Part shown: one piece after another, positions 13,402-35,192 of the stretch
How the letters are laid out: each line of letters starts with the position of its first letter
Numbering within the stretch: position 1 is the stretch's first letter
DNA from: Candidatus Omnitrophota bacterium
GTDB lineage: Bacteria > Omnitrophota > Gorgyraeia > Gygaellales > Profunditerraquicolaceae
Assembly: GCA_026416665.1 (NCBI GenBank)
Contig: JAOAET010000051.1
Span: 203,800 to 239,409 of the forward strand
DNA: 35,610 nucleotides
Direction: 5' to 3'
Translations under genes and position numbers: made by a program
Notes under the pieces: model-generated
What the model saw: only the letters and a program-made list of their open reading frames with translations
What the model was told of the DNA's origin: nothing
Database searches by the model: none

Positions 13402-13542
13402 TCTTCCTCCTTTTCTTTCTACTTTAAGGTAAGTATAAAAAACCGTCCCTAAGGTTTCCGTGTGAGTATATTACCTGAGTAAGTGAAAAAGTTTCTCATT
13501 TTTTCCTTTTGATATGTTGATACTTAAAAAGAATAAACAACT

Positions 13543-15037: not shown

Positions 15038-15073
15038 AGAAAAGATCTTTGTACTTCAGTAGTTAAATCGGAC

Positions 15074-16803: not shown

Positions 16804-16859
16804 ATTACCAGAAATACTTTTTATCTAAAAAACTTGTAACAAATTTTACATTCTTAAGA

Positions 16860-18789: not shown

Positions 18790-19461
18790 TTAAATTATAT
18801 CTCTGCGCAATAAATTTTCCTTAGATGGTTTAGTTGACAAGGCGGTCCAAATAATTTTTACTCTACGCCTATAAGTTTTTTGGAAAAGGTCTGTCTTTTT
18901 TTCGGCTTTTTCTTTATCTTCTCTGGTAAAACCACTGCCTTTTACTTGCATTATCACTAAATTGGGTAAAATATTACAGCGTATTTCTTTAACCTTAGAT
19001 TTATGTGCATAGTCTAAGCCATCAGCCAGACGGACAAAAGAAGCAAGTTTACAAACAATCTTTTGTGTATAAGGGGCCAGTGTAGAAAAATATTTATGGG
19101 ATTTTTTAGGTAGAGATTTCCGGTGATAACGTGCAATTAAACCTATTATTACACGTTGCCTATCCGATATTGGAAGCGTATGGTCTTGCATAATCAGTTC
19201 TAAGGAACTTTTATGATGAAATTTTTTACCGAGTTTCCACCCAATATCATGTAACAATGCCCCCGCCTCTATAAGCATTCTTTTCCTAACAGATAAATTA
19301 TGTAAATTGTGTAATTCATCAAATAAATTAACTGCCAAACGGGACACCTGTTGAGAATGTCTATGGTCATATTGGTAAAGAGAGACAAAATTTAAACTTT
19401 TTTTTATTAAAGGGTCTCTTCTAATCTCTTCCAAATCTTTTGTTCTTGTTGCCTGCGCCAT
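18790..19461 (-). CDS. Stand-alone HD-domain protein related to the Ppx/GppA C-terminal domain
   Basis: A 223-residue soluble protein made almost entirely of an HD phosphohydrolase domain: His35, the H71-D72 pair in L-L-H-D-I-G, a downstream H-H-K, the I-A-R-Y-H-R-K motif and R-L-A-D-G-L-D-Y-A-H-K. The same landmarks occur in the same order in the C-terminal part of the Ppx/GppA homologue encoded at 22336-23883 (L-H-D-I-G, H-H-K-H, I-A-R-Y-H-R-K, R-L-A-N-A-L-D-C-S-H-K). It therefore looks like a freed copy of that domain rather than a generic HD enzyme. Its start (ATG at 19461) lies 55 bases inside the CHAD gene with no clear Shine-Dalgarno, so a shorter start, such as the TTG at 19434, is possible. 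Substrate unknown; polyphosphate or a nucleotide is plausible from context. Confidence 0.82.
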   Translation of the reverse strand: MAQATRTKDLEEIRRDPLIKKSLNFVSLYQYDHRHSQQVSRLAVNLFDELHNLHNLSVRKRMLIEAGALLHDIGWKLGKKFHHKSSLELIMQDHTLPISDRQRVIIGLIARYHRKSLPKKSHKYFSTLAPYTQKIVCKLASFVRLADGLDYAHKSKVKEIRCNILPNLVIMQVKGSGFTREDKEKAEKKTDLFQKTYRRRVKIIWTALSTKPSKENLLRRDII

Positions 19462-20303
19462 AATCTTGTAAATTGCCGATATTTTTTAATCCTCTGCTGT
19501 CTACATATTTGTTGAATGTGTTTTATACCTGCTGTGTAGCGAGCATCTTCTTTGTGCGTCTTTTTTAAGTGGGGTATCTGCGCCAACCATACATCATATT
19601 CATGCAAATCACCAAGCACATCCTGGAGGCGTTTTGCCTCTTTCATATATGGTGTAAATTTCTTACCATATAAGGCTTCTAAAATCTCTAAACTGTAACG
19701 TAACTGTTTAGCAGAAATTCGTAACGCATGTAAAAGTTCTGCATTATAAGTATCTTTTAAAGAATAAGATATTTTTAACATCGCCTTAAGTTTTTTGAAT
19801 ACGATACGACGTGTCCGTTTCTGAAGAGACCTCTCGAGATACTCTTTTTGATATTCTTGAATAATTTGTATATATCTGCTTAATCGGTGAAATAATCTTT
19901 TTTTCTCAAAAGTTTTTAGCAAAGATTCAATTTTTTTTGATACTGCATTTCGTCGTAACTGCAATGTTTTAAGTATTACTCTAAGACCATATCTTAACAA
20001 ATTGTTTGTTTTCTTCTTAAGCAAAATTTGAATAAACATAATCTGCACATCCAACTGACGTGCCTCTCCAAGTGTTTTACCAAGAAGACGAATCCTTTTC
20101 TTAATTTTTTTTAATTTTTTTCTAGGGAAAACTTCTCGCACAAAAGCAAATGCAGCACGTAATCGGCGTGAATATACCCGCATACGATGTAGTGGCTCTA
20201 CATCCTTGCTATTTTGTAAAAGTGGGATTTCTTTTCTTATCTTCTCAATGTATTCTTTAAGAATATCAGCGATTTTTGGGGACAGAGATTTTTTTTGCTT
20301 CAT
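19407..20303 (-). CDS. CHAD domain protein (polyphosphate-binding)
   Basis: A 298-residue, very basic helical protein with the two CHAD repeats. The first has L-H39-R-M-R-V-Y-S-R-R-L-R, and the second L-H192-A-L-R-I-S-A-K-Q-L-R-Y. The spaced His/Arg/Lys residues form the positive groove that binds polyphosphate in characterised CHAD proteins. Lysine/arginine-rich helices run between them. It overlaps the ppk stop by 4 bases (ATGA), so it is almost certainly co-translated with polyphosphate kinase. It may direct proteins to polyphosphate granules or bind the polymer; no catalytic motif is seen. Confidence 0.9.
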   Translation of the reverse strand: MKQKKSLSPKIADILKEYIEKIRKEIPLLQNSKDVEPLHRMRVYSRRLRAAFAFVREVFPRKKLKKIKKRIRLLGKTLGEARQLDVQIMFIQILLKKKTNNLLRYGLRVILKTLQLRRNAVSKKIESLLKTFEKKRLFHRLSRYIQIIQEYQKEYLERSLQKRTRRIVFKKLKAMLKISYSLKDTYNAELLHALRISAKQLRYSLEILEALYGKKFTPYMKEAKRLQDVLGDLHEYDVWLAQIPHLKKTHKEDARYTAGIKHIQQICRQQRIKKYRQFTRLWRRQQEQKIWKRLEETL

Positions 20304-22330
20304 GTCGTGTAAATTTTAAGTAATTCTTCCTGAGCATTAAATTTACGCTCGTTAACCTCTGGACGAGTATAGGTACCATCTATCGCAAGATATCTTACTT
20401 TCGCGGTATCCTCCCAATAAGTTTTCATTATCCAAATAAGTTTATCCTTTATAGGTTTGCGGTTAACTTCAAAGAGAAGTTCCACCCTCTTATCAAAATT
20501 TCTAGTCATCCAGTCGGCAGAAGACAGAAATACTCGCTTATCATTATTGTTTCCAAAAATGAAAATCCTTGAGTGTTCCAAGAATCTCCCCACTATACTA
20601 CGTACCTCGATAGCATGATTTTGTGCCTGTTTAGGAATAAGACAACAAATACCCCTTACCAATAGTTGTATACGCACTCCCGCATCAAAGGCCTCATATA
20701 GTTTTTCTATTATCTGCGTATCCTCTAAAGCATTCATTTTGGCAAAGATAAAACCATTACCATATTTTTTTTGGAAAGCAATCTCTTTATTAATCAAATC
20801 AAAAATATACTTGCGCAACTCATAAGGAGCATATACTATCCTCTGCAAACGACCAGGTAAAGAATAACCAGTAATAAAATTAAAGATATCGGCAACCTCT
20901 CGAGCAATGTCTTCATTAGCAGTAAAATACCCGATATCCGTGTAAATACGAGTGGTATTTTCGTTATAGTTACCTGTTGACAAGTGAACATAACGCTGAA
21001 TTCTTCCTTGTTCTTTCCTGATAATAAGCATCATCTTGGCATGCACCTTATAACCAGGCATTCCATAAATTACATGACAACCTGCTGCTTCTAAGTCCTT
21101 TGTCCAATCAATATTGCGCTCTTCCTCAAAACGCGCCTTTAATTCTACTAGAACTGTCACTTGTTTTTTATTACGAGCCGCTTCTAAAAGCGCCTTAATA
21201 ACTGCCGAGTCATCATTAGTTCGGTAAAGAGTCATCTTAATAGCAAGCACATCCCTATCCTTGGCTGCAATCTTAAGAAGATCAATTGTGGGCTGAAAAG
21301 ACTCAAAAGGCAAGTGTAGAATAAAATCTTGTTCTTTGATTATCTCAAAAATATCTTCGTATTCCATCCTTGCTGGAATAAAACTTTTATAAAGTAGTTT
21401 GGGATTTACTACAGAATTTGCCAATTCAAACAAAAATGTTAAATCTAAAAACCCATCAATACGCACAATATCATCATAAGAATACTCCAGTCCCGCACAA
21501 ATATCTTTAATAAGATCTTCGGTGGCTGGTATCTCCACCTGAAGGTTAACAACTTTGGCTTTAGGACGTTTCTTGATTTCCTGTTCAATAGCCCTTAGCA
21601 AATCTTGTGTATAATCCTCTGCAATCAACACTTCACTGTCACGAATTACCCTAAACTTAACCACTGTCTTTAAGGTATATCCTCTAAAAAACTTTGCTAA
21701 GTAATATCTAATAATCTCATCTATGAGAATAAACTTGTATTCATCCCTTTCTGAAGGAAGTTTCAGTAGTCGTGGTAATGAATACGGCAGAGGCACTATT
21801 GCCAAAAAAATATCATTATTTCTTTGTAGTTTAATAGCAAAAGCATTTGTTCTGGATGGCAATACAGGGAACGGGTGGCCGGGATCAACGGCAAGAGGCG
21901 TGACAATCGGAAAAATTGTAGTTTCAAAAAAACGCTCAACCATCTTTGCCTCTTCATTAGTTAGTTCTGTAATTCCCTTAATGAAGATCCTCTGCTCTGC
22001 TAACTGTTCCAACAAATGTTTATTAAAAATTTCGTACTGTTTACGAATAAGGTGTTCATATTTCTGGCGTATAAACTGATAAACCTCTTGAGGATAATAA
22101 CCATACGCATCTTTCTGATTATGTTTTGACTCAATAAGACGTAAAAGACCGGCTACTCGGACCATAAAGAATTCATCCAAGTTGTTAGAAAAGATTGCGC
22201 AAAAACGTAGCCGTTCAAGCAAAGGATTATCCGAGGAAACAGCTTCCTCTAATACCCTTTGATTAAATTCAAGCCAACTTAAATCTCGGTGAAAAAAACG
22301 ATAATCAGACCATTCAGATACATCCTGCAT
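20300..22330 (-). CDS. ppk1: Polyphosphate kinase PPK1
   Basis: Reversible transfer of the ATP gamma-phosphate to polyphosphate. The 676-residue length is normal for PPK1. The N-terminal domain starts with F-H-R-D-L-S-W-L-E-F-N-Q-R-V-L. The two phospholipase-D-like catalytic halves carry the essential histidines: His430 in Y-K-V-H-A-K-M-M-L, the candidate phosphohistidine, and His586 in F-L-E-H-S-R-I-F-I-F-G. S-T-G-N-Y-N-E-N-T-T and S-A-D-W-M-T-R-N are also present. It starts 5 bases after the Ppx/GppA-like gene and overlaps the CHAD gene by 4, so the genes form one translational unit. Confidence 0.96.
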   Translation of the reverse strand: MQDVSEWSDYRFFHRDLSWLEFNQRVLEEAVSSDNPLLERLRFCAIFSNNLDEFFMVRVAGLLRLIESKHNQKDAYGYYPQEVYQFIRQKYEHLIRKQYEIFNKHLLEQLAEQRIFIKGITELTNEEAKMVERFFETTIFPIVTPLAVDPGHPFPVLPSRTNAFAIKLQRNNDIFLAIVPLPYSLPRLLKLPSERDEYKFILIDEIIRYYLAKFFRGYTLKTVVKFRVIRDSEVLIAEDYTQDLLRAIEQEIKKRPKAKVVNLQVEIPATEDLIKDICAGLEYSYDDIVRIDGFLDLTFLFELANSVVNPKLLYKSFIPARMEYEDIFEIIKEQDFILHLPFESFQPTIDLLKIAAKDRDVLAIKMTLYRTNDDSAVIKALLEAARNKKQVTVLVELKARFEEERNIDWTKDLEAAGCHVIYGMPGYKVHAKMMLIIRKEQGRIQRYVHLSTGNYNENTTRIYTDIGYFTANEDIAREVADIFNFITGYSLPGRLQRIVYAPYELRKYIFDLINKEIAFQKKYGNGFIFAKMNALEDTQIIEKLYEAFDAGVRIQLLVRGICCLIPKQAQNHAIEVRSIVGRFLEHSRIFIFGNNNDKRVFLSSADWMTRNFDKRVELLFEVNRKPIKDKLIWIMKTYWEDTAKVRYLAIDGTYTRPEVNERKFNAQEELLKIYTT

Positions 22331-22335
22331 TGTAA

Positions 22336-23883
22336 CTACCCCTCTTGTATTCTTAAAATTATTTTATTACCCGAAATTTCTTCAAACATATTTTTCTTAT
22401 CTCTAAAATCAAGTTTTTCTAAGAGAAAATTTCCCTGGACAGTTACCGTAATAATCGCTTCTCGGCCACGGCTAAATTTCACTTCTAACTTCTTTACTTT
22501 TTGTTTATGGGAACAATCCAAGGCATTGGCCAGTCGTAACAAGGCACTAAGTTTCTGTACCGTAATTTGTTGCTCGCGAGAAAGTGATTGATAAAGTTGG
22601 TGGGTATCTAGAGGGGTTCCTTTGCGGTGATAACGGGCAATACAAGCAATCATTGCAATCTCTTCTTCTGTAAGACGAAATAAAGGCTGATTGGAAATGA
22701 TATATTCTGTGTGCTTATGATGTGCACGGTTGTGTATAAACATACCTATATCATGCAGATACGCTGCCAATAGAAGATATAAGGAGTCGCTCTTTTTAAG
22801 CCCCAGATTCTCTTTGAAGTTGTCAAAAAGAATATCAGAGATATCTGCTACCGCCTGGGCGTGTTTCAAGTCAACGTTATATTTTCTACACAACGCATTG
22901 GCAATACCAATAAGCTGATTTGTCTTATTGTATTTCTGTGATATTTCATAGTCCAAAAGCTCAGTAGCAAGTATTGCTTCCGCAAGAGATGCCTCTAAAA
23001 TGTATAGACCATTTGATTCTACTAAAAAGGCAAGTGTGTCCGCAATCAAAGAATATTCTACAAAAGTTTCTGCAGTCTCTGGCGGTATTTTGTAATTGCG
23101 AGAGAAATCTTCGATTCCCAAGTTGATTATCCGTTCGAAAAGCAGACGTGTATCGGTAGCGGACAATTGAAAAAACTTACTTTCAAATTTTTTTTCTTTT
23201 AATATCTCGGGAAGATACTGGGAATAGGCCTCATCTATCAATATAATATCGTGTATGGGCAAAGGGATGTTCCGTCTAAGGTGACTCAATTCATTTTCTA
23301 TGTGTTCACGGACTGCTTCAAGGTTTTCATGCTGGGTACCATCTAATCTCTCCATAAGTTGTTTCAACCGCAAAGTTCCCAAAGGCAACCCCATATTCAT
23401 AAGAGTATAACCGTATGCCATAAAAGATACATCCAGACTACCTGAGCCAAGTTCTGCGATGACCAAATTTTTTTCATGCAGTGGATACCTATCTCGTAGT
23501 CGATGATAAAGATAAGCATCTATGTAATAGACAACATCACCAACAGTTAGCACATCTATATAGAAGCCTGTCTTTCTACGTAATGCGTCAATGAAGACAT
23601 CTCTATTACGAGCCTCTCGTACTGCGGTCGTAGCAATCACATGGGGATTTGTAATAGCGTATTCATCAAGAATACGCTTATATTTTTCCAAGATGGCAAC
23701 TGTGCGATTAATACTCTCTTGAGATATTCTATCTTCAAAGAAAGTATCCTTTCCTAAACCTAAGACGCTACGTAAGGACTCTAATATCCTTATGTCTTCT
23801 TTTGCTTCTTCTGCAATCAACATCTTAACCGAGTGGCTACCAATATCAATAACCGCTGCCCTTACGGGTTCCTTTTCTTTCAT
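22336..23883 (-). CDS. Ppx/GppA phosphatase homologue with C-terminal HD domain, altered active site
   Basis: A 515-residue protein with the two-lobed actin-like fold of exopolyphosphatase/guanosine pentaphosphatase and a C-terminal HD domain (H377-D378 in L-H-D-I-G, then A-R-Y-H-R-K). The first phosphate loop is I-D13-I-G-S-H-S-V, with a His for the usual Asn. The second, normally D-I-G-G-G-S-T-E, is E144-L-G-S-G-S-L-D. The catalytic segment, normally G-x-E-E-A-R, reads G115-D-V-V-Y-Y, so both glutamates are missing. The fold is clear but exopolyphosphatase activity is doubtful; it could sense polyphosphate or ppGpp, or rely on the HD site. The start has AGGGG upstream. It heads the polyphosphate cassette. 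Confidence 0.88.
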   Translation of the reverse strand: MKEKEPVRAAVIDIGSHSVKMLIAEEAKEDIRILESLRSVLGLGKDTFFEDRISQESINRTVAILEKYKRILDEYAITNPHVIATTAVREARNRDVFIDALRRKTGFYIDVLTVGDVVYYIDAYLYHRLRDRYPLHEKNLVIAELGSGSLDVSFMAYGYTLMNMGLPLGTLRLKQLMERLDGTQHENLEAVREHIENELSHLRRNIPLPIHDIILIDEAYSQYLPEILKEKKFESKFFQLSATDTRLLFERIINLGIEDFSRNYKIPPETAETFVEYSLIADTLAFLVESNGLYILEASLAEAILATELLDYEISQKYNKTNQLIGIANALCRKYNVDLKHAQAVADISDILFDNFKENLGLKKSDSLYLLLAAYLHDIGMFIHNRAHHKHTEYIISNQPLFRLTEEEIAMIACIARYHRKGTPLDTHQLYQSLSREQQITVQKLSALLRLANALDCSHKQKVKKLEVKFSRGREAIITVTVQGNFLLEKLDFRDKKNMFEEISGNKIILRIQEG

Positions 23884-24051: not shown

Positions 24052-27000
24052 CTAAAAAAATCTATAATGGGCAAAGGTTACTTTTCTCTGGTAAAAAGAA
24101 CTTATACCTTCAATTTTTTGGAAAATTTGCTGACATAATGGCGAGGTGGGTAAAGCGAATTCTTCTTCAATACGCATCATTTCTAAGACAAGAAATTGTG
24201 CAATCCTTATAAACTCTTTGCTACCTCTGTGGCATTGTATGAACTCTAAGTAATCTATTATTATTTCTGAGTCAGGCAAAATCAAGGAATTTAGCATCTG
24301 TTGTATTTTTCTACCACGCTCATCTTGGAAAAGTTGTTGCCAATCTTGAATATCGAATATCTCTCCGTAGCAACCTGTTGACTCTGAATTTATATTTTTA
24401 ATTGAAAGATTTCGAAAATCTATTCCACCCACATTAGTTCCAGGAACTCCGCCATCTTTTGAAGAAGAAAGATAACTTTCTTTCAGACTATAATAATTTC
24501 TCATCTGTCCTTGAGAATCCACTGCCTTTACCTTTTGTAAAAATCCTTCTCCTACCAATTTTTCAAGGTCACCATAAACAGTAGAATATGAAGGACACAT
24601 CTGTTGACCAACCAAGGGGATAAAAATAAGTTGTAATATCTGCTGGATAGAAAAATTTTTTGACATATTTTCTTCTGTTAAAAAGAAGTTACGAATAAGT
24701 TCAAGGCGTTGTTGTTTGCCCGGCTTAAACGGTAAATTATAACTTTCTTCCTCTGTTATCTTATCAGCCGAAAACGATGTTTTTTCTAACGGTGCTTTTT
24801 TTGCTTGGAATTTTTCTTTTGGCAAAGAATCTCTTGCCACGACAGGCAAAGAAAAATCCGCTATTTCTTTTATACTGGCAATTCTATCCTTTGCAAACTT
24901 ACTTTGTTGTTTGCGCACATACCAGGCTTCAGCAGGAACGGGAACATAAGTTCGTATAGAAAATGGCTGCCCTTTGTCGTAAATATTTCTATACAACTTA
25001 AATAAATTACGGTAAAAATTATGTTCGTCATCGGATACTTCAAAACCATTACCATCATCGTGAACTGCTCCCAAAAAAGTAGTGATTCTCTCATTATTTG
25101 CCAACATCACAAACGGAACAAGTATATCCAAAGCAAGAGATACCGGATAGGATGGTTTATTATTTTCAGTATATTCTTTGACCTGTTTGCATAAAGCAAT
25201 AAAACGGCTATATCTATCTGCGTTTTGAAAACTAACTACCATCCCCCCTGCAAAACCAAGAAATTGTTCTTTTTCGTTATTATCCCAATCAAAATACCTA
25301 CGAAGCGTCGCCTGCTCAAGTTTGTTTTTTATAGTAGCAAAGTCCATTTTCTCGTAAAACTTTCGAATAAACCCTGAACCTCGCACATCTGCAAGAAATA
25401 AACCAAACTCTTGTTCGCTAATCTGCTTTTTATTCATCCAGCAACTAAGCAGAGTAATATCTCCTACGGGACTTATCCTGCCAATATACAAACCATCAGT
25501 AAACAAGATTACCTCTGCACCCCTTCGATTTCTTGCCTGAAGTTCTTGTGTTCCTTTATAACCATTCATCAAAGCAAGACGTAAAGATTCTTTATCAACC
25601 ATATTTGGTTTATGGGCAAGTAAAACGATTGAACGCATTTGTTCCGGGGGAATTGTTCTTAAACGAGGATGTTGCTGGATTAGACGTCTGAATTCTTCTG
25701 AATGTTTGTAAGCATAGAAATCAATAAATGCGTTACCACTACCTTCTCCTTTACTGGGCACAAAAAATACAGGTACGTCTTTATGTCTAATAATCTCCTC
25801 TTGTTCTAGTGAATGAATTATTGATTGTAAATGTTCTTTATTTTTAGGATTGTTACCGGTAAGGACAAAGATTGCATCGGCACTTGGCTGTTTCGAAAAT
25901 ACTTCTTTTTCTAATGCTTCTTTGCTTAACCTATACTCTTTATTTAAAAGTGCTGGCTTTTTTAAGTCGTCTATTTTCATTCCACTTTGCAATGCATTTC
26001 TTTGAATATCTTTATCCAGTTTCTTAAAAATTTCTTTTTGGTTATTGTAAAATTTACTAACCAGACTATCACGGATTGTCCACCAAGATATACCAATAGA
26101 AATACCTATGCCTGTAACAGCAGCTGCAATCACATTGGCAATATTAAGAGGCGCCCCTAAGGGTAACCCTACTAAGAACAACAAGTGGCTTACAAACGGC
26201 AGAAAAAATATCATAAGTGGCAAGAATCTTGTAAGCATCTCTCGCATTCCACCAAATGCATCTTGGACACGTAAAACAATCTCTTGGGTTTTTCCCACAT
26301 ACAGAGAACGGAAATAATTGCGTAATTGTTCTTTTTGTTTTTCTGGATCCTGATACAAGTTTGGTTCAAGTTCATTCCCAATTTCTACTACCTTTTTTAA
26401 CTGTTCAAAAAAACCTTTCTCTGCTTGTTTTAAACCATAACGTATACCCCAAAGTATACGTAACGGTGGCATAAAAAGTTCTTTAATATCACCAACTGGA
26501 TAGTAGTAAGTAGTCATTGCTATACCCATGGCTATTAACTGTAAGCCATATTCCGCCTCATTACTATACTCTGCTATCTTACGTAGATAAAGCAACCCAT
26601 ACATAAATCTCTCTTTATCATCTTGTGATAAACCATTTCTTTGCCATTCATCTAAAAGAATATTTACTGTCTGAGTACTCAAGTTAGAAAATCTTCTCAT
26701 GAACTTAATACCTTCTTCAATCTTTGTCTTCTCGTTTAAATTATCTACTGAAAAAATAGGGTAATTCAATAGCTGTTTTGCGATATTAAGAATGGTTGGC
26801 ATTTGATTCTGCCTAAAAATATCTTTTGACCTATTCAATTCATTCTGCCATTTTTCAAATAATAAAGGCGGTGTATATTCAAGCGGTTCTCTTAACATAT
26901 CTGCTTCTGAAGTAAACATTTCTTCTTCAGGAGAAGACATTTTATCTGCGGAAGAAATGTTTTTTCCTCTGTCAGTTGGTTTAACCCTAGGAGAAGATTT

Positions 27001-29760
27001 ATTTGAAAAGGTATTTTGTCTATTTTCTTTATCTATTTCTTCGGGTACAATTTTAAAACCATTAACTTTGCGGGTATTTATTAAAATCTTAAGAACAAGA
27101 TATGTCAGAAAAGCACTGATGCCAAAAACCCAAGCATATAGTGGTTCTAATAACCAAAGAACTACTGCCAACAAACCAACAACAAATACCCACTTTCCTT
27201 TTAGCACTGACAGGCTCTTCTGGGAAACAGCTGTTGCAACTGCACTTCCTGTGGCAGAAGAAAATGCTACTGTCAACATTTTAACTAAACTATTTGTGTC
27301 TAAAAAACCAGATACAGTGGCTGGCGGATGATCCGCAAAACTGACATTAGTAACTCCAATCCCTATGGGTGCTTGTATTGACCCATTGGGTTTGTTTGCA
27401 ACAGAAGATTGTTGCTGATTCAATCCCGAGTGTTCCCCTGTATAAAAAGAACGCTTTAAATCCCCTTCCCCCAACGGTTGCTCAGCATAAGATTTTATTT
27501 GAAGCGGCCAGCCATCCGGTGGCGTAATTACGGAATAGTCTTTGTTACATATATAAAATTTTACAGATTGTCCCTCAAAATTTTTAAAGATATAGGCAGG
27601 TATTCTGTCTTCCCATTGATTTTGAATAGGTATAAAAGAAACTGAACCTTGAGCATCAACTATCTTGATATAACCTTCATCAGGCAAACCGTGCACAGCA
27701 ATACCACTATAATGTGAGTGCGGTGAACCATCAATATATAACTGGTGAGGGGCATTTTCGGGTATATAAGTAGAAACTGTCTCTGGCTTAGGATGGACTA
27801 CCACATCTGGTTTTTGTAATGTATTCTGAGCTGAATCATTTGTAAATAAAGTATTATTTGCCGGAAAAATCTCCTTAGTGGTGTTAGAACTGTCCACCGC
27901 TGAAATGGTCTCCATTAGCCCAAAAATACTCATAGATATAGATACCAATGCTAAACCTATTAACCCACTCCTACCAATACGCTGAAGCATAAGGTTATTA
28001 GAATTCATCATAAAATAAAATATCAAGTTTGCTGCGGCCATAATAACAACAAAAGGGAACACTCCTGTTGAAATAAAACCAGTTAGTATCAATATAGAGG
28101 GAGCAAAGATATTAGAGAAGCCAATAAGTAACCAATGCGGTGCCTGCCCACCAAAAATTTTCTTAAAAGCATAATTTATCGCTATACTTGTCCCCTGAGA
28201 AAATATACGTGTAAAAGGATTCTGTAATAATCCAAGCATCTGACCAATCCAGTATAAATCAGAAGCACCAAAATTAGTTAAAGAGATCAAAGGGAATAAA
28301 AAGTTACTTCTTTTTTTACTACTCCTTGCTTGGTATACCTTGTTATTGCCTCCATCAAAACCTTTATTTTTATAATCTAAATTTTCCCTTAAGAAAAATT
28401 CATCTTGGGGCCGAACGATTCTCTGCTTTGCTTTTATGGTTTGTAAAGGATTTTCTTTTTGAGACTCTCGTTTAAACAAATAATTTTCTGGCAAAGAGAC
28501 AAAAATTGGCTTTTCTTTAGAAAAATCAATTTTTACTTTGGCAGGACAAATTTTTTGTCCTATAACAGGAATATGCCAGATATCATTCTTAATAACCTTA
28601 ATAATTGGTTGCCCTGTCATCGGTTGTTCTATATTGTCTACTGAGGTAGCTACTATCGAAGAAGGGAAACGAAAATCCATTCCACCACTAAAATACTGTT
28701 GGAGCATAAGCCCATAGGCGGTCATCACTTCTTCTTGTTTGTTATATTCTCCATACAAAAGAGATTGACGGTAGGCATCAAAATATGTATCTTTTGACCA
28801 AGATGTTTCTGAAGTAAGCCCTTCTAAATCTCTAGAATCTACCTTCTCCACCAAAGACAATACAGCGGGGGAAATTTTCTTTTCTAATGAAACGGCCTTG
28901 TTTTTAAACTGCGATTTGAACCAACGCGCCAAAATAAGTGAATAATAAACCTGACGCAAAGGTGCGTACCGTCTATCGGAGTTAACCAATCTGGTTACCT
29001 TAGGGATAATTAATCGTCTAATAAGTTCCGAAGAATACTTATTAATGGCCATAATCCGCCGATCAGTAAAACTCATATTTTTTTGACCAAACCAATCTTC
29101 TTCTAACACAACCTTTAATGTGGCTTTACATATATAAGTTGAGGTGGATGACTGGCATAAAATAATTTCTCCTGGCACAATCCAAGAACGAATAGCCGTC
29201 GGAATCTCTATCTCTTGTTCCATGCCAAAAATTTCATTTGCTTTCTGATAAAGTTCATTCCAGTATTGCCTGCCTTCAGGTGTATCAACAGAAGTAGCCT
29301 TTGCCACATCTTTTTTTAACAGCAGGTCCGTCTCTAGTAGAATTTTTCCGACATCGGTCTTGGCTAAGTCGGGATCAAGCATACGATTATTTCTGTCGGG
29401 ATGCAAATCTACCCAAAAAACTGAATCAGGTAAGACAAGCCCTATGAGAAAATATTCGATAAGTTTCAGTGTGGTATCTTCCACTTTAATATTAGAGGAC
29501 AGAAAATCTCCTTTATCTAAAAGGATAGTAAATGACTCCTCCGCAGGATTACAATGCAGATACCGTAAGTGTATAGGTCTAAATCTCTCAATGGAAAAAG
29601 CAATATTTCCAGCTGAGGCAGATACAGTTGGATTGACAACTTGACAGGCACCTGACTGCTGATAAGAAAAACAAAAAATAATGAGAATACTTATTATCTT
29701 TCGGCATAAGACAGAATGAATATTAAATAATGACGAAAAAAAACAAGTGTCTATTTTCAT
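24052..29760 (-). CDS. Giant multidomain membrane protein (1902 residues), Omnitrophota-type, function unknown
   Basis: I do not recognise a function. Visible segments: a hydrophobic signal or anchor (about 20-38); a globular module (about 90-365) with L-D-P-D-L-A-K-T-D-V-G-K-I-L-L, T-P-E-G-R-Q-Y-W-N-E-L-Y and a Y-F-S-G-G end; membrane segments at 545-580 and 590-617; an extracytoplasmic stretch (about 655-760) with I-D-G-S-P-H-S-H-Y; a hydrophobic pair at 856-893; a charged Ser/Lys linker; a helical region (970-1160); membrane helices at 1177-1200 and 1205-1228; an alpha/beta domain (about 1290-1610) with G-E-G-S-G-N-A and a glycine-rich core; and a predicted winged helix (about 1683-1760). 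From memory, the N-terminal module recurs in huge Omnitrophota proteins. The start overlaps the TPR gene by 4 bases. The frame is intact throughout. Confidence 0.85.
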   Translation of the reverse strand: MKIDTCFFSSLFNIHSVLCRKIISILIIFCFSYQQSGACQVVNPTVSASAGNIAFSIERFRPIHLRYLHCNPAEESFTILLDKGDFLSSNIKVEDTTLKLIEYFLIGLVLPDSVFWVDLHPDRNNRMLDPDLAKTDVGKILLETDLLLKKDVAKATSVDTPEGRQYWNELYQKANEIFGMEQEIEIPTAIRSWIVPGEIILCQSSTSTYICKATLKVVLEEDWFGQKNMSFTDRRIMAINKYSSELIRRLIIPKVTRLVNSDRRYAPLRQVYYSLILARWFKSQFKNKAVSLEKKISPAVLSLVEKVDSRDLEGLTSETSWSKDTYFDAYRQSLLYGEYNKQEEVMTAYGLMLQQYFSGGMDFRFPSSIVATSVDNIEQPMTGQPIIKVIKNDIWHIPVIGQKICPAKVKIDFSKEKPIFVSLPENYLFKRESQKENPLQTIKAKQRIVRPQDEFFLRENLDYKNKGFDGGNNKVYQARSSKKRSNFLFPLISLTNFGASDLYWIGQMLGLLQNPFTRIFSQGTSIAINYAFKKIFGGQAPHWLLIGFSNIFAPSILILTGFISTGVFPFVVIMAAANLIFYFMMNSNNLMLQRIGRSGLIGLALVSISMSIFGLMETISAVDSSNTTKEIFPANNTLFTNDSAQNTLQKPDVVVHPKPETVSTYIPENAPHQLYIDGSPHSHYSGIAVHGLPDEGYIKIVDAQGSVSFIPIQNQWEDRIPAYIFKNFEGQSVKFYICNKDYSVITPPDGWPLQIKSYAEQPLGEGDLKRSFYTGEHSGLNQQQSSVANKPNGSIQAPIGIGVTNVSFADHPPATVSGFLDTNSLVKMLTVAFSSATGSAVATAVSQKSLSVLKGKWVFVVGLLAVVLWLLEPLYAWVFGISAFLTYLVLKILINTRKVNGFKIVPEEIDKENRQNTFSNKSSPRVKPTDRGKNISSADKMSSPEEEMFTSEADMLREPLEYTPPLLFEKWQNELNRSKDIFRQNQMPTILNIAKQLLNYPIFSVDNLNEKTKIEEGIKFMRRFSNLSTQTVNILLDEWQRNGLSQDDKERFMYGLLYLRKIAEYSNEAEYGLQLIAMGIAMTTYYYPVGDIKELFMPPLRILWGIRYGLKQAEKGFFEQLKKVVEIGNELEPNLYQDPEKQKEQLRNYFRSLYVGKTQEIVLRVQDAFGGMREMLTRFLPLMIFFLPFVSHLLFLVGLPLGAPLNIANVIAAAVTGIGISIGISWWTIRDSLVSKFYNNQKEIFKKLDKDIQRNALQSGMKIDDLKKPALLNKEYRLSKEALEKEVFSKQPSADAIFVLTGNNPKNKEHLQSIIHSLEQEEIIRHKDVPVFFVPSKGEGSGNAFIDFYAYKHSEEFRRLIQQHPRLRTIPPEQMRSIVLLAHKPNMVDKESLRLALMNGYKGTQELQARNRRGAEVILFTDGLYIGRISPVGDITLLSCWMNKKQISEQEFGLFLADVRGSGFIRKFYEKMDFATIKNKLEQATLRRYFDWDNNEKEQFLGFAGGMVVSFQNADRYSRFIALCKQVKEYTENNKPSYPVSLALDILVPFVMLANNERITTFLGAVHDDGNGFEVSDDEHNFYRNLFKLYRNIYDKGQPFSIRTYVPVPAEAWYVRKQQSKFAKDRIASIKEIADFSLPVVARDSLPKEKFQAKKAPLEKTSFSADKITEEESYNLPFKPGKQQRLELIRNFFLTEENMSKNFSIQQILQLIFIPLVGQQMCPSYSTVYGDLEKLVGEGFLQKVKAVDSQGQMRNYYSLKESYLSSSKDGGVPGTNVGGIDFRNLSIKNINSESTGCYGEIFDIQDWQQLFQDERGRKIQQMLNSLILPDSEIIIDYLEFIQCHRGSKEFIRIAQFLVLEMMRIEEEFALPTSPLCQQIFQKIEGISSFYQRKVTFAHYRFF

Positions 29761-30521
29761 TTTATATCTCGGAGTAATTGTTCAATCTCTTCGGCTTTAT
29801 CTAAAATACCCTGTTTTCGAAAAAGTTCTCTTGCAACAATAAGACTTTGTCTTGCCCTCAGCGAATTCCCAATCAAATAATATTCAATTCCCATCAAAGC
29901 ATGTGCCTCAGCATCTTCAGGCCTTGCTTCAGTAAGTTTAGATAACCAACGTAAGGCGTCATGATGTCGTTCAATGCCTTGATAGGCAACTGCAATATTG
30001 TAGTAAACATCGGTATCCTCTGGATTCTCTCGCACCGCATCTAAAAGTTCTTTGAGTGCTGTTTCATAAAGTTGGTTTGTTAACGCTCTGGCACCGCAAA
30101 AGACCTTAATGGCGTACTCTCTGGTGACATTACCTGAAGAGACATCATTTATAATGCGTAACGCTGCTTCTAGATTACGGTCATCAGGAAACTGCTTTAA
30201 TCCTTCAGAAAAAATAAAAGCTGCTTCTTCTAATTTCTCTTCTGCTGCTAAAGCGATTCCTCTATCTAAAAATTCTTCTGGCGATTGCAAAGAAACATCC
30301 TGTTCCTTATGAAGTTGATCAACAATCACTGCGCGCACGGCGTTGTGTTCGAAATAAAGCGGCCCACTTCCGCAATCTATCGCAAGATAGTCAGCAGTAT
30401 TTTCTACAATCTTACCTTGCAATTCTTTGCCTGACTTAAGAACAAGTGTTTCTGCAAAACTTTGTGAAGGTCCTAAGGGAGCGCACATTAAGATAAGAAG
30501 GAAATAAACCACACCGAACAT
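29757..30521 (-). CDS. Secreted TPR-repeat protein, partner of the giant protein
   Basis: A 254-residue exported protein. A signal peptide (about 1-23, ending S-F-A) is followed by a short beta module (about 25-65; L-K-S-G-K-E-L-Q-G-K-I-V-E-N), like small SH3-type folds seen before TPR arrays. The rest is tetratricopeptide repeats, clearest at about 80-110 and 150-225 (Y-Y-N-I-A-V-A-Y-Q and A-H-A-L-M-G-I-E-Y-Y-L-I-G). Its stop overlaps the giant gene start by 4 bases (ATGA), so the two products are probably made together and may interact. It follows the second phoU by 51 bases and could be read from the second pst operon. No enzymatic motif. Confidence 0.8.
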   Translation of the reverse strand: MFGVVYFLLILMCAPLGPSQSFAETLVLKSGKELQGKIVENTADYLAIDCGSGPLYFEHNAVRAVIVDQLHKEQDVSLQSPEEFLDRGIALAAEEKLEEAAFIFSEGLKQFPDDRNLEAALRIINDVSSGNVTREYAIKVFCGARALTNQLYETALKELLDAVRENPEDTDVYYNIAVAYQGIERHHDALRWLSKLTEARPEDAEAHALMGIEYYLIGNSLRARQSLIVARELFRKQGILDKAEEIEQLLRDIK

Positions 30522-30572: not shown

Positions 30573-31250
30573 TCAGGATCCTTCCTGGAGAGAAGAAATG
30601 TTGTGTTTAACCATCTTTGCCTGGGTAAGATAAATTATATCTTCGGCAATATTGGTAGCATGGTCACATATACGTTCTAAGTGTCGCGCAACCAATAGTA
30701 AAGGCAAAGCTCTTGGTACTGTACTTTTGTCTTTGAGCATATAGTCATTAGTTAATTCAAGTTGCACAAGGTTTCTTAAAGCATCTGCTTCACTATCACG
30801 CAAGATAACTGTTTTGGCTAACTTTATATCTTCGTTTAAGAATGCTTTTATTACATCCCTAGTCATCTGGCAGGCAATCTCAGCAAGTTTTGGAATATCC
30901 ACTAAAGGTTTTAAGAGAGGTTTATCAACTAACTCTAAAACCCTTTGACAAATATCTACTGCCAAATCTGCCATGCGCTCTAAGTCAGTATTTATCTGCA
31001 TAGCCATAGTAATAAAACGTAAATCCGCGGCCACGGGTTGTCGCAGTGCCAACAAATCTACACAGGTTTGCATAATTTTTATTTCCAAGGCATCTACTTG
31101 TTTATCAGATTCAATAACTGCAATTGCATCCTTTTGACTTAAATGCTTCAGTGCCTCAATAGATTTGTAAATGGCTTCTTCCACAAGAGTTCCCATGTAA
31201 AGAATGTCTTTCTTTAACTGTAACAATTCCTCATCAAAATGGCGCTCCAT
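30573..31250 (-). CDS. phoU: Phosphate transport regulator PhoU (copy 2)
   Basis: A 225-residue helical PhoU with the same two-repeat layout as the first copy: M-N-T-D-L-E-R-M-A-D-L-A-V-D-I-type metal-binding helix mid-protein and H-L-E-R-I-C-D-H-A-T-N-I-A-E-D near the end. GGAGA precedes the ATG. It lies 19 bases after the arsenate-reductase-like gene and completes the second Pst operon. Its close resemblance to the first PhoU suggests duplication, or strong constraint to read the same signal. Whether each PhoU serves only its own transporter cannot be seen. Confidence 0.94.
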   Translation of the reverse strand: MERHFDEELLQLKKDILYMGTLVEEAIYKSIEALKHLSQKDAIAVIESDKQVDALEIKIMQTCVDLLALRQPVAADLRFITMAMQINTDLERMADLAVDICQRVLELVDKPLLKPLVDIPKLAEIACQMTRDVIKAFLNEDIKLAKTVILRDSEADALRNLVQLELTNDYMLKDKSTVPRALPLLLVARHLERICDHATNIAEDIIYLTQAKMVKHNISSLQEGS

Positions 31251-31269
31251 AATTTCTCCGGGTTAGAAA

Positions 31270-31701
31270 TTACTGATTCTTACTGTCTGCATTTTCTATG
31301 TCTTCTGTGATAACTGACTTAATAAACTTTAGAACCTTTTCACGAATCTTTTCTCTTACCTGTCTAAAAAAATAAGTGGATTTGCCTTTGGGGTCTTCAA
31401 TATCCCACTCAATGTGTTTACGTGCAGGCACAAAAGGACAAACATCGTGGCAACCTAAAGTAATTACATAATCAAATTCTTTGTTGTCCAGCTCATTAAA
31501 CCCTTTTGGCTTCTGATTAGATATATCGATATTTACTTCTTGCATTACCCGAATTGCCTCAGGGTTTACTTCCTTAGCAGGATTTGAACCTGCACTATAA
31601 ATATCTAAAACATGTGCCCCAAAAAAACGAGCAAAGCCCTCTGCCATCTGACTACGACAAGCATTCTCCACGCATACAAAAAGAACTTTTTTCTTGTTCA
31701 T
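31270..31701 (-). CDS. Arsenate reductase / low-molecular-weight phosphatase family protein (ArsC-like)
   Basis: A 143-residue LMW-PTP-fold protein. The anion-binding loop is C10-V-E-N-A-C-R16-S, with nucleophile Cys10. Downstream cysteines C84 and C88 lie in G-C-H-D-V-C-P-F, followed by W-D-I-E-D-P, whose Asp is the likely general acid. Three-cysteine relays of this kind are used by thioredoxin-coupled arsenate reductases; the 84/88 spacing is tighter than in the classical Staphylococcus enzyme. The gene overlaps pstB by 4 bases (ATGA) and precedes phoU, so it is inside the second Pst operon. Arsenate enters through phosphate transporters, so detoxification fits. A protein-tyrosine phosphatase role is the alternative. 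Confidence 0.85.
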
Positions 31702-32564
31702 CCAAACCTCCCAGTGATATATGCCTCTGTTCGTTTATCGCTGGGCGCAGTAAATATTTTTTCGGTAGGCCCAAATTCAATTAGTTCCCCCATTAAGAAA
31801 AAACCTGTTACGTCTGAAACACGGGCTGCCTGTTGCATATTGTGGGTAACAATGACTATTGTGTATTGTTTCTTAAGATCTAAGATTAACTCTTCGATTT
31901 TAGCCGTTGAAATGGGGTCTAAACTGGCACAAGGTTCATCAAAGAGAATAACCGATGGCTCAACCGCTAAACAGCGCGCAATACACAGACGCTGTTGTTG
32001 CCCACCTGAAAGCCGTAGCGCGCTATCGTGAAGTCGGTCCTTAACTTCACTTAAAAGTGCTGCCTTTTCTAAAGATTGAATAACTTTTTCTTCAATAACA
32101 TTTGGATCCTTTAAACCATTTACACGTAAACCATAGGCAATATTCTCGTAAATACTTTTTGCAAAAGGATTTGGCTTCTGAAAAACCATACCTACTTTCC
32201 GACGAATCTCCACTACGTCACAACAAGGGTCAAATATATTGTGTCCATCCAAAAAAACTTTTCCTTCCACACGGGTATGCGGGACTAGTTCGTTCATCCG
32301 ATTAAGCACCCGAATAAAAGTAGACTTACCGCAACCAGAGGGCCCAATAATAGCAGTAACGCTATTTTCAGCCACCCCCAAATTGATATTATTCAATGCT
32401 TTGACATTACCATAGAAAAAATTAAGATTCTCCACTCGAATTTTGGTTTTGACAGATACAGACTGGTTTTGCGAAACTACTTGTGGCTTACGCAAAATTG
32501 CCTCTTTTTTTGCCTGTTCAGTTGAATGGTCATTAATAAATTTTTTAGTTGTATTATTGGACAT
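31698..32564 (-). CDS. pstB: Phosphate ABC transporter ATPase PstB (second system, all motifs intact)
   Basis: A 288-residue Pst ATPase with every catalytic element: Walker [11 protein letters not shown]-loop F-Q-K-P-N-P-F, signature L-S-G-G-Q-Q-Q-R, Walker B V-I-L-F-D-E-P and H-loop V-T-H-N-M. As a single copy it should work as a homodimer, a useful control for the split pair at 13543-15037. The ATG at 32564 follows AGGAG and overlaps the pstA end by 11 bases; an upstream in-frame start is less likely. About 40 residues of polar, charged sequence precede the ABC domain, longer than in most PstB proteins. Its role is unknown. Confidence 0.95.
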
Positions 32565-33405
32565 AACTGCTCCTGTGTTTTTGTCGCAAAATAATCGCAA
32601 TTGCCGAGACACACAAAACTAAAACTAATAAAATCAAGGCGCAACCGTAGGCAATAGTTGTTTGTTTATCGGGACGTGTGCCCTCGGTCATTAATGCATA
32701 AATATGATATGGTAAAGCCATTGTCTCTGACATAAGAGAACGAGGAAATCCCCGCATATAGAAAGCCGCAGCAGTAAAAAGTATCGGAGCGGTTTCTCCT
32801 GCAACTCTGCCGATACTTAAAATTACTCCTGTCAAAATTCCTGGTAAAGCCTCAGGAAGAACGATGTTTTTAATGGTTTGCCAGTGTGTTGCTCCCAGGG
32901 CCAAAGATGCCTCACGATGTGATTGGGGCACAGCCATCAACGCTTCTTGCGACGCAGAAATAATAAGCGGTAAAATTAATATCCCAAGTGTCAAACTACC
33001 AGACAGAATTGAGACACCAAAATTAAAAAACTTAACAAACAAAGCCAAACCAAAAAGACCGAAAACAACGGAAGGCACACCTGCTAAGTTATTTATGCTC
33101 ATTCTTATAATATTTACCACAAAACTACGTGGGCTGTATTCATTAAGGTATATGGCAGAAGCAACTCCTAGGGGCAGAGCAAAGGCAATGGCGCCTAAAG
33201 TAAGATAAAAAGTCCCAACAATAGCAGGAGCAACCCCACCTTCAGTCATTGCCCTACGCGGTGGCTGGGTAAGAAATTCCCAAGAAATCGCTGGTATACC
33301 ACGAATTGCAATAAAAAAGATTATTGCACCTAAGAAAAAAAGGGTGATAAGAAGGCATAAAGTCAAAATAGCAAATCCTAATTTTTGTGTAATATCCTTT
33401 CTCAT
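32554..33405 (-). CDS. pstA: Phosphate ABC transporter permease PstA (copy 2)
   Basis: Permease of 283 residues with about six membrane helices. The EAA loop reads [14 protein letters not shown] with [20 protein letters not shown] and the G-E-T-A-P-I-L-F-T segment match PstA. The start overlaps pstC by 4 bases (ATGA) and the end overlaps pstB by 11. It closely parallels copy 1 at 15074-15922. Confidence 0.95.
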
Positions 33406-34286
33406 CTGCCTAATCCCAGTTTTAATCTAAACCTGCGACTAATTATTTCTGCTAAGATGTTAAAAATAAGTGTTATCAAAAACAAGATTAACCCAATGGA
33501 GAAAAGCGCATTGTAGTGTAAACTACCCACTGCTGCCTCTCCCATCTCAGCAGCAATAGTAGAGGTCATTGGCCGCACCGGGTCAAAGAAAGAACGTGGC
33601 ATTACTGCTGCGCCTCCTGCAACCATAAGCACTGTCATCGTCTCTCCAATTGCTCTACTCATTCCTAAAATAATTGCGGTAGAAATACCCGACCCTGCTG
33701 CAGGCAGAACCACTTGTGTTAAAGTCTGCCAACGGTTAGCTCCTACCGCAAGTGAGGCCTCACGGAAACTATTCGGTACACAAGAGAGAGCATCTTCAGC
33801 AATACTGGTTACTGTTGGCACAGCCATAATACCTAACATAACGCTAGCAGTAAATGCACACAGTCCAGTAGGCAATTTTAGAAGCTGCTGTAAAAAAGGG
33901 GCAGCAATAACCATACCAAAAAATCCATAAACTACAGAAGGAATACTGGCTAATATCTCTATCAATGGTTTAAGAAATGCCCGTTGCCTTGCTGAGGCAA
34001 GTTCATGAATATAAAGAGCACTTCCTACTCCCAAAGGCACACATATCACTAATGCCCCTAAGGTTACCCATAAAGAGGCAACAATAAGTGGCAGTATTCC
34101 AAACTCTGCCTCTTCGTGTGTAGGATACCATGCGGTTCCTAATAAAAAATCTCCAACCGGAACATACCGAAAAAGTGGCAGTGATTCTTTAAATAGAAAT
34201 AAGATGATACCCACAAGAAAAATTAAAGAGGCAAATGCCAAAATCGTAAAAATCCACCGATAAATTTTTTCTCTTAAACGCTGCAT
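33402..34286 (-). CDS. pstC: Phosphate ABC transporter permease PstC (copy 2)
   Basis: Permease of 294 residues, the same length as copy 1. It shows L-L-G-T-A-W-Y-P in the first loop, A-S-I-P-S-V-V-Y-G-F-F-G, and the EAA loop E-D-A-L-S-C-V-P-N-S-F-R-E-A with V-G-A-N-R-W-Q-T-L. A 90-base gap with a stem-loop separates it from pstS, and no strong Shine-Dalgarno is visible before the ATG. The stem-loop probably sets the ratio of binding protein to permease. Confidence 0.95.
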   Translation of the reverse strand: MQRLREKIYRWIFTILAFASLIFLVGIILFLFKESLPLFRYVPVGDFLLGTAWYPTHEEAEFGILPLIVASLWVTLGALVICVPLGVGSALYIHELASARQRAFLKPLIEILASIPSVVYGFFGMVIAAPFLQQLLKLPTGLCAFTASVMLGIMAVPTVTSIAEDALSCVPNSFREASLAVGANRWQTLTQVVLPAAGSGISTAIILGMSRAIGETMTVLMVAGGAAVMPRSFFDPVRPMTSTIAAEMGEAAVGSLHYNALFSIGLILFLITLIFNILAEIISRRFRLKLGLGR

Positions 34287-34298
34287 AGTATTTTTGTA

Positions 34299-34345
34299 GC
34301 TGGTACAACAGCAGGCCGTGGTTTTATTCCAACTGTTGCACCAGC
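34299..34345 (-). other. Intercistronic stem-loop between pstS and pstC (second system)
   Basis: The arms 34299-34311 and 34333-34345 are inverted repeats matching at 12 of 13 positions (GCTGGTACAACAG against CTGTTGCACCAGC), with a 21-base loop. In the minus-strand RNA no U-run follows, so it is not a standard terminator. Such hairpins after binding-protein genes often protect the upstream mRNA from 3' decay and raise its level relative to the permease; that role is inferred here. Confidence 0.6.
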
Positions 34346-34376
34346 AAAGGGGTTACTGCTTAGTATGTATCAGCAA

Positions 34377-35192
34377 TTATTTTATACTTACGTAACCCTC
34401 CTCATCAACTAACTTTTGCCCTTCTGGACTTAAAATAAAATCAATAAACTCTTTGGCAAGCCCTGTTGGTTTACCGTTTGTATACATAAAAAGCGGTCGG
34501 GAAAGACGGTATTTTTTGGAAACAACTGTGGATTTAGTAGGCATAACACCATCTATCTCAATGGCCTTGACTCCCTTTCCTATATACGCCAAACCAACAT
34601 AACCAATCGCACCCGGTGTTTTTGCTACTACCGACGCAACTGCTTGATTAGAAGCCTCCATAAGTGCGTCCTTACGCACCTTCTGTTTATCTAAAGCCAA
34701 ATCTCCAAATGCCTCAAAAGTCCCACTTGCCGAATCGCGAGAAACCACCACAATCTTCTCTGAAGGCCCACCCACTTCAGACCAGTAAGATATTTTTCCT
34801 GTGTAGATATCCTTTAATTGCTGTTTGCTTAATCCAGTAATGGGATTGGCAGAATTTACAATTACTGCAATGCCATCCATAGCAATAACATGTGCCTTGG
34901 GCTCTTTTCCACGGCTAATGGCTTTTTCTAATTCCGAGTCTTTTATTGGCCTAGAAGAATTAGCAATATCGCAAGTGCCAGCAATAAGCGAGGTAATACC
35001 TACTCCTGAACCACCGCCTCTTACACTTATATCCGCATCTTTATTGCGTGCCATAAACTCTTCGGCTGCGCGTTGGGCAATTGGTAAAACAGTAGTTGAG
35101 CCCTCAATAACCAAACGCTCAGCATGGGCTACTCCTACTACTAACCCCATAACTAGGATGGTAACTAAAATAAATGTAGATATTTGTTTCAT
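34377..35192 (-). CDS. pstS: Phosphate-binding protein PstS (copy 2)
   Basis: Periplasmic phosphate receptor of 271 residues. The signal peptide ends A-H-A near residue 24. Ligand loops are I-E-G-S-T-T-V, R-G-G-G-S-G-V-G-I and S-R-D-S-A-S-G-T, with L-S-R-P-L-F-M-Y near the end. GGGAGG precedes the ATG. It starts only 16 bases after the porin-like gene, so porin and receptor are probably co-transcribed. It is shorter than copy 1 after the S-G-T loop and differs in its anion-site residues (S-T-T against S-D-T), which may change affinity or discrimination. Confidence 0.95.
   Translation of the reverse strand: MKQISTFILVTILVMGLVVGVAHAERLVIEGSTTVLPIAQRAAEEFMARNKDADISVRGGGSGVGITSLIAGTCDIANSSRPIKDSELEKAISRGKEPKAHVIAMDGIAVIVNSANPITGLSKQQLKDIYTGKISYWSEVGGPSEKIVVVSRDSASGTFEAFGDLALDKQKVRKDALMEASNQAVASVVAKTPGAIGYVGLAYIGKGVKAIEIDGVMPTKSTVVSKKYRLSRPLFMYTNGKPTGLAKEFIDFILSPEGQKLVDEEGYVSIK

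Follow-up and report, generated by a model that had tools for sequence, protein, structure and literature searches.

P0001 is the phosphate-locus member of a large head-tail protein family of Omnitrophota. It may well be a pseudoenzyme anchored in the envelope, with a part in the uptake or sensing of phosphate, and we put the probability of this reading at roughly 0.55. In the mechanism that we infer, the signal peptide would send the head outside, the membrane segments would anchor P0001 in the inner membrane, and the inactive nucleotidyltransferase-like domain would bind a phosphate-containing ligand (phosphate, a nucleotide or a sugar phosphate) or a Pst/PhoU partner. Together with the TPR protein P0002, P0001 would play an accessory or sensory role in phosphate uptake, with the winged helix as a lineage-specific extra outside the core function.

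The window is the whole stretch of DNA that was analysed, 35,610 nucleotides from a Candidatus Omnitrophota bacterium. A first-pass annotation, made from the letters of the window, had proposed one intact frame without naming its strand. The frame is indeed unbroken; it lies on the minus strand and runs from an ATG at 29760 to a stop at 24052 (1902 codons, 5,709 bases). It is also intact in its own assembly (contig G000:C15; the genome comprises 1.6 Mb in 59 contigs), and homologues in other genomes establish that it is coding. The features are collected in Table 1.

Table 1. Features of P0001 and its neighbourhood, in window coordinates
Feature	Positions	Strand	Basis
P0001, whole gene, 1902-aa head-tail protein	24052..29760	minus	ORF translation
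Signal peptide / N-terminal hydrophobic segment, residues 14-40	29641..29721	minus	inspection and hydropathy
Conserved head, residues 41-365	28666..29640	minus	identity across Omnitrophota, AF2 model
Membrane block 1, residues ~545-620, two helices	27901..28128	minus	
Linker segment, residues 621-830	27271..27900	minus	
Membrane block 2, residues ~832-896, then positive NTRK	27073..27267	minus	
Helical region, residues 897-1178; last part lies in the conserved orthologue core	26227..27072	minus	
Membrane hairpin, residues 1179-1229, adjoining the nucleotidyltransferase-like domain	26074..26226	minus	
Degenerate sugar-nucleotidyltransferase-like domain, residues 1251-1625, GGxG(S/T)R loop lost	24886..26010	minus	
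Possible winged helix, residues 1687-1761, PadR/FUR-like, sub-threshold	24478..24702	minus	
GGIDFR C-terminal tail module, residues 1777-1892, four-helix prediction	24085..24432	minus	
P0002, partner gene, exported-type TPR protein	29757..30521	minus	adjoins all P0001 orthologues
Second Pst operon: phoU, LMW-phosphatase/ArsC-like gene, pstB, pstA, pstC, pstS	30573..35192	minus	synteny kept in orthologues
Other Pst operon	12733..17717	minus	PBP match of 16860-17717 and matches to the second pst sets of orthologue loci
Polyphosphate cassette: HD, CHAD, polyphosphate kinase, Ppx/GppA	18790..23883	minus	downstream of P0001

Head and tail modules of P0001 and its relatives

As a whole, P0001 gave no useful match in Pfam, NCBIfam or PDB sequences, and no relatives were found by a short-peptide scan of GTDB contigs or in phage records. 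The family to which it belongs came to light only with a six-frame genome search combined with profiles. Among 58 near genomes, 43 contain relatives of residues ~18-365 (identity mostly 45-52% across Omnitrophota, best E near 1e-105), often as several copies per genome and at the starts of long ORFs. A profile built from 30 heads recovered this family-wide head in 56 of 162 good-quality Omnitrophota genomes sampled, all of one class. The heads in this phylum sample always lie at the start of long ORFs and many copies are common, with up to 77 head candidates in one genome. Among GTDB contigs, the best 79 head loci are nearly all named Omnitrophota.

A stretch resembling a signal peptide opens the head; it closes with a conserved FEQ(S/T)GFAQ, of which P0001 carries the variant SYQQSGACQ. 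The N-terminal exported-type module that had been proposed is present, consisting of a hydrophobic segment at residues 14-32 and a conserved module extending to ~365, and the kinship to giant Omnitrophota proteins that had been suggested is borne out by sequence. Structure prediction by segment, also suggested earlier, succeeded in part: the head was modelled confidently (AF2, 81 alignment rows; pLDDT 84, pTM 0.82) and had no PDB match, and the C-terminal model was of low confidence. Foldseek, queried with the head, gave no match in PDB or among viral models (best E 0.27 and 0.24), so within the limits of these two libraries the head probably represents an undescribed fold.

The other end of P0001 is equally characteristic of the family. 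The last ~115 residues, referred to here as the tail, consist of a GGIDFR.LP... motif and, after it, four predicted helices; they are matched by the C-termini of other head proteins and have no Pfam match. Of 85 distinct head ORFs that are complete, both ends falling within the fetched DNA, 72 close with the tail, at 35 residues or less from the stop. P0001 itself carries the head at its N-terminus and the tail within ~35 residues of its C-terminus. At least seven of the 13 exceptions have a tail in the neighbouring ORF (L077, L110, L119, L129 twice, L144, L148), and such pairs look like split, frameshifted genes. A frameshift, phase variation or an assembly error may each lie behind these adjacent head and tail ORFs. 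Other exceptions are L088, in which the tail is shortened, and L070 and L073, in which only a GGID/GGIN motif remains near the end. The own genome holds four heads and four tails, all of which pair after two contig-end splits are matched by overlap; at the ends of G000:C43/C17 and C33/C31, 46 and 47 residues of head-tail genes are shared, a sign that the assembly breaks there. In the phylum sample, the head is also present in 26 of 28 tail-bearing genomes, and most distant heads are without a detectable tail. Head and tail copy numbers are equal in 18 of 30 genomes, where head counts near ten are to be read as at least that number.

Between head and tail, the middles range from 186 to 5,224 residues and have no common sequence. 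The earlier suggestion that P0001 was assembled from unrelated modules is therefore strongly supported, as head and tail are conserved and the middles are mutually unrelated. One might instead regard P0001 as a decaying or chimeric ORF without function, given the poor conservation of its body and its few relatives. This is scarcely credible, since the 1902-codon frame is intact, head and tail are conserved, and the orthologues described below are syntenic with intact frames of 1451-1932 aa.

The tail might serve as a sorting or assembly element. Exported proteins with C-terminal sorting domains include those with the type IX secretion CTD, dockerins and PEP-CTERM. The head-tail proteins share with them a signal peptide, a variable body and a conserved C-terminal module, but the GGIDFR tail is all-helical, ~115 aa long and paired with a conserved N-terminal head. 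The own genome has two exported-type ORFs with PEP-CTERM-like ends (TPEPVSS...), at minus 1308 and 2444 in locus L208; their contig, G000:C43, also carries a head gene.

P0001 belongs to the known long envelope-type proteins of Omnitrophota. Giant ORFs exceeding 20 kb, including a 39,678-aa protein of Velamenicoccus archaeovorus, are described in the available text of Seymour et al. 2023 (PMC10066038), where attachment, predation or host interaction is proposed for them. P0001 shares with these ORFs the phylum, a long reading frame, membrane helices and few annotated domains (PMC10066038, available text), and its nucleotidyltransferase-like module also occurs in giant-sized ORFs of 15,564 and 37,731 aa. 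It differs in size, being 5.7 kb long against the >20 kb of that text, in which the domains named are of adhesion types, not glycolytic enzymes, and no shared head or tail is described (PMC10066038). The available portions of the literature describe giant and long Omnitrophota ORFs as poorly conserved and of unknown role, and a shared head, a shared tail or glycolytic middles were not found in the accessible portions of open-licence papers on them; a text search of open-licence literature for the tail motif returned no relevant paper. Judged from open-licence literature, the head-tail family of exported-type Omnitrophota proteins is apparently undescribed. The shared head and tail offer a handle by which many Omnitrophota long ORFs can be counted, aligned, localised and tested together.

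The phosphate locus and its orthologues

P0001 lies, as the first-pass annotation had placed it, between a Pst operon and a polyphosphate cassette (PPK, PPX, CHAD, HD). Upstream and on the same strand are phoU, a low-molecular-weight phosphatase/ArsC-like gene and pstBACS. On the downstream side, a CHAD-domain protein sits beside an HD protein and PPK/PPX (18790-20303), making a compact polyphosphate cassette. P0002 is an exported-type protein with an N-terminal 'LKSGKELQGKIVENTADYLAID' domain and TPR repeats. Its reading frame and that of P0001 share 4 bp, which makes joint translation probable, and P0002 is likely the functional partner of P0001.

A profile of the orthologue core identified five clear orthologues in 108 family genomes, namely those of the window, G004, G123, G190 and G433, the last taken as the genome of locus L131 because both hold the same 1537-aa frame. 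As G123, G190 and G433 share one genus label, three genera are represented. The orthologues are 20-28% identical in the body. All five adjoin pst, phoU, the ArsC-like gene and a P0002-like TPR gene, and genomes differ in how the TPR gene and the giant gene are ordered. Among the other fetched head loci, PhoU occurs nearby only in L152. This locus, with PhoU and TPR genes nearby, was considered as a further phosphate-linked case and set aside, its middle being unrelated by profile and methyltransferase-like in appearance. The rarity of orthologues (5 in 108 family genomes) implies that P0001 is not essential for Pst, and synteny among related genomes is partly shared ancestry. The conserved neighbourhood at 20-28% identity is nonetheless the best available evidence on function, and suggests that P0001 acts in phosphate uptake or in controlling it. 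The TPR protein and the giant P0001 would make up a defined two-gene unit tying one family branch to phosphate uptake.

The same evidence bears on the view that P0001 is a surface or secreted protein of a generic kind, used in attachment, predation or host interaction, its phosphate neighbourhood being a case of hitch-hiking. The family is of exported type in a phylum for which predatory lifestyles have been proposed (PMC10066038, available text), and related nucleotidyltransferase-like modules lie within the two giant-sized ORFs named above. Yet the Pst/PhoU/TPR context is kept in five of five orthologues despite rearranged gene order and is rare near other head-tail genes, and a Pfam search of P0001 found no adhesion or polysaccharide-degrading domains. 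We consider this view rather unlikely and favour the role in phosphate uptake or sensing.

Nucleotidyltransferase-like domain, membrane segments and candidate winged helix

Residues 1251-1625 belong to a family of 14 members, which occur in 13 of the 293 class genomes and for the most part lie within long ORFs of up to 37,731 aa. The same module was seen in open frames of 37,731 (G147:C3), 15,564 (G192:C37) and 18,052 aa (G123:C6). Members of this alpha/beta family match PF07959 (6e-16) and PF00483 (4.6e-6). P0001 alone matches neither, and its homology is reached only through intermediate members: L187, L074 and L189, which keep AGGxG(S/T)R, NGDG and FxEKPS, link the family to both profiles. 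The catalytic AGGxG(S/T)R loop is kept by these 3 of the 14 members and is missing in P0001 and ten others. In the alignment, the GEGSGNA of P0001, a conserved glycine-rich loop, falls opposite GNGGA in the less degenerate members. P0001 and the fucose pyrophosphorylase/NTP_transferase families (PF07959, PF00483) share homology at the level of the family profile, the GSGNA/GNGGA loop and other landmarks, whereas P0001 is without AGGxG(S/T)R and the EKP motif, and its domain is fused to a membrane hairpin, a head and a tail.

The alpha/beta domain with GEGSGNA that had been noticed earlier is accordingly real, the loop serving as a conserved landmark of the 14 members. The first-pass annotation had regarded homology to a known enzyme family as speaking against its view, and such homology exists for this domain, a degenerate relative of fucose pyrophosphorylase/NTP transferase. 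A relation of the domain to CofD was considered and rejected, as P0001 does not match CofD, which occurs as a middle in L047. The quality of the C-terminal model (mean pLDDT 60) was too low for fold searching to be informative, because its alignment contained just one nucleotidyltransferase-like relative.

With the catalytic loop lost, the domain is most likely a pseudoenzyme. The opposite view takes P0001 for an active membrane-attached sugar-1-phosphate nucleotidyltransferase that supplies activated sugars for envelope glycan. It can draw on the motifs retained in L187, L074 and L189 and on a glycosyltransferase that forms the head-tail middle in another locus, but the catalytic loop is missing in P0001 and in the L035 and L179 orthologues alike, and we judge an active enzyme highly unlikely.

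P0001 has hydrophobic segments at 556-574, 598-619, 858-876, 878-896, 1179-1197 and 1207-1225, which agrees with the several membrane segments reported earlier; six such segments in the middle are unusual for the family. The linker between the first two membrane blocks was searched by sequence for relatives, and none was detectable. Cysteine makes up 0.89% of P0001 after the last hairpin, and P0001 has more cysteines and membrane segments than typical members. The topology prediction that had been called for was made with a simple scorer and gave 7.8 for a cytoplasmic C-terminus versus 7.6 for one outside. In all five orthologues, the membrane block that precedes the helical region is followed by positively charged residues (TKSKKIK, NTRK, NTKKE, YRWWNNR), and by the positive-inside pattern the C-terminal half may be cytoplasmic, in which case the tail of P0001 would lie on the opposite side from the tails of membrane-free members. 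On the other hand, the number of hydrophobic segments is even in four of five orthologues, and this, together with the presence of the tail in membrane-free proteins, would favour a C-terminus outside.

The winged helix, previously predicted at about residues 1683-1760, holds up weakly. The isolated segment resembles PadR (PF03551; E 1.2e-4, 22.4 bits where the cut-off is 27, with 40 of 75 positions covered), and the segment of L035 resembles FUR (E 0.003), also below the Pfam cut-off. It is common to P0001 and L035 only (31% conserved), two of the five orthologues, and is missing in the other three (L131, L204/L213 and L215, its absence in L215 being judged from the shorter length and close similarity to L213). 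The structure model has low confidence across it. In P0001 and L035, the recognition-helix and wing region matches PadR/FUR (PF03551, PF01475) below threshold; unlike in those families, coverage is partial, the segment is absent in three orthologues, and it is embedded in an exported-type protein.

These observations bear on the earlier suggestion of a membrane-bound regulator, in which the head would sense outside and a cytoplasmic winged helix would bind DNA and control phosphate genes. Membrane one-component regulators of the ToxR/CadC type carry an N-terminal winged helix before a single membrane helix. A regulatory P0001 would resemble them in being a membrane protein with a winged helix, but the candidate here is C-terminal, after about six segments. 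Phosphate-gene synteny, the PadR/FUR similarity kept in L035 and the positive flanks of all five orthologues, which favour a cytoplasmic C-terminus, are what such a regulator would predict. Against it stand the absence of the winged helix in three of five phosphate-locus orthologues, its sub-cut-off score and low-confidence model, the even segment number in four of five orthologues, and a PhoB-like response regulator (below the strict cut-off) elsewhere in the genome. We regard the regulator as distinctly unlikely.

Central-carbon enzymes among the family middles

Pfam matches of the family middles include PGK, TIM, FBPase, iPGM, PPDK/PEP synthase, enolase and phosphoglucomutase; others are CofD, PP2C, a response-regulator domain, glycosyltransferase 4, methyltransferases and HEAT/TPR repeats. 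Among the enzyme middles are TIM with FBPase (L071), PPDK/PEP synthase (L098), iPGM (L101), PGM (L102), PGK with TIM (L066) and an enolase in a truncated ORF with head only (L037). The L071 TIM keeps GNWKM, the GHSE motif and AYEPVWAIGTG, the L098 PPDK keeps GGPTCHAA and the L102 PGM keeps TPSHNP; by these motifs, the TIM, PPDK/PEP-synthase and phosphoglucomutase middles are intact-looking. The two domains of the L101 iPGM and of the L037 enolase are in swapped order (permuted). In most of the genomes with giant copies of TIM and enolase, short genes of the ordinary kind encode these enzymes too, which makes the giant copies additional ones.

Cysteine makes up 0.32% of head-tail ORFs versus 1.35% of 470 other ORFs in the same loci (P = 5e-30), and 44 of 72 head-tail ORFs have no hydrophobic segment after the signal peptide. 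The low cysteine content and the absence of membrane segments fit export of the head-tail proteins, and Omnitrophota would apparently have a second, exported set of glycolytic enzymes. A wider reading, which we offer tentatively as possible, is that the exported novel-fold head and the GGIDFR tail bracket central-metabolism enzymes, giving an extra-cytoplasmic or delivered glycolysis/gluconeogenesis beside the cytoplasmic set, with P0001 as the phosphate pseudoenzyme branch. The family would be categorically new if this were true. It raises the testable question of whether sugar metabolism of Omnitrophota takes place outside the cytoplasm or in a partner cell.

Eukaryotic TPI-GAPDH fusions carry organelle targeting peptides, and glycolysis in a second compartment has been suggested for them (PMC3527533). 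Fused glycolytic enzymes with an N-terminal targeting signal are common to these fusions and to the glycolytic members and the G000:C32 fusion described below, P0001 not included. Unlike the head-tail family, the TPI-GAPDH fusions are eukaryotic, mitochondrial and without head or tail, and the likeness is one of analogy only.

Two further frames with glycolytic enzymes were observed. The own genome encodes a 2031-aa PGK-GAPDH-TIM-enolase fusion in the region of G000:C32:9154-11085 (L193:3519-9611, minus strand), which begins with a hydrophobic signal-like segment; no head or tail was seen in it, and ordinary TIM and enolase genes are also present. In another genome, an enolase-like match (G033:C2:168722-169399) lies within an open frame of 70,450 residues.
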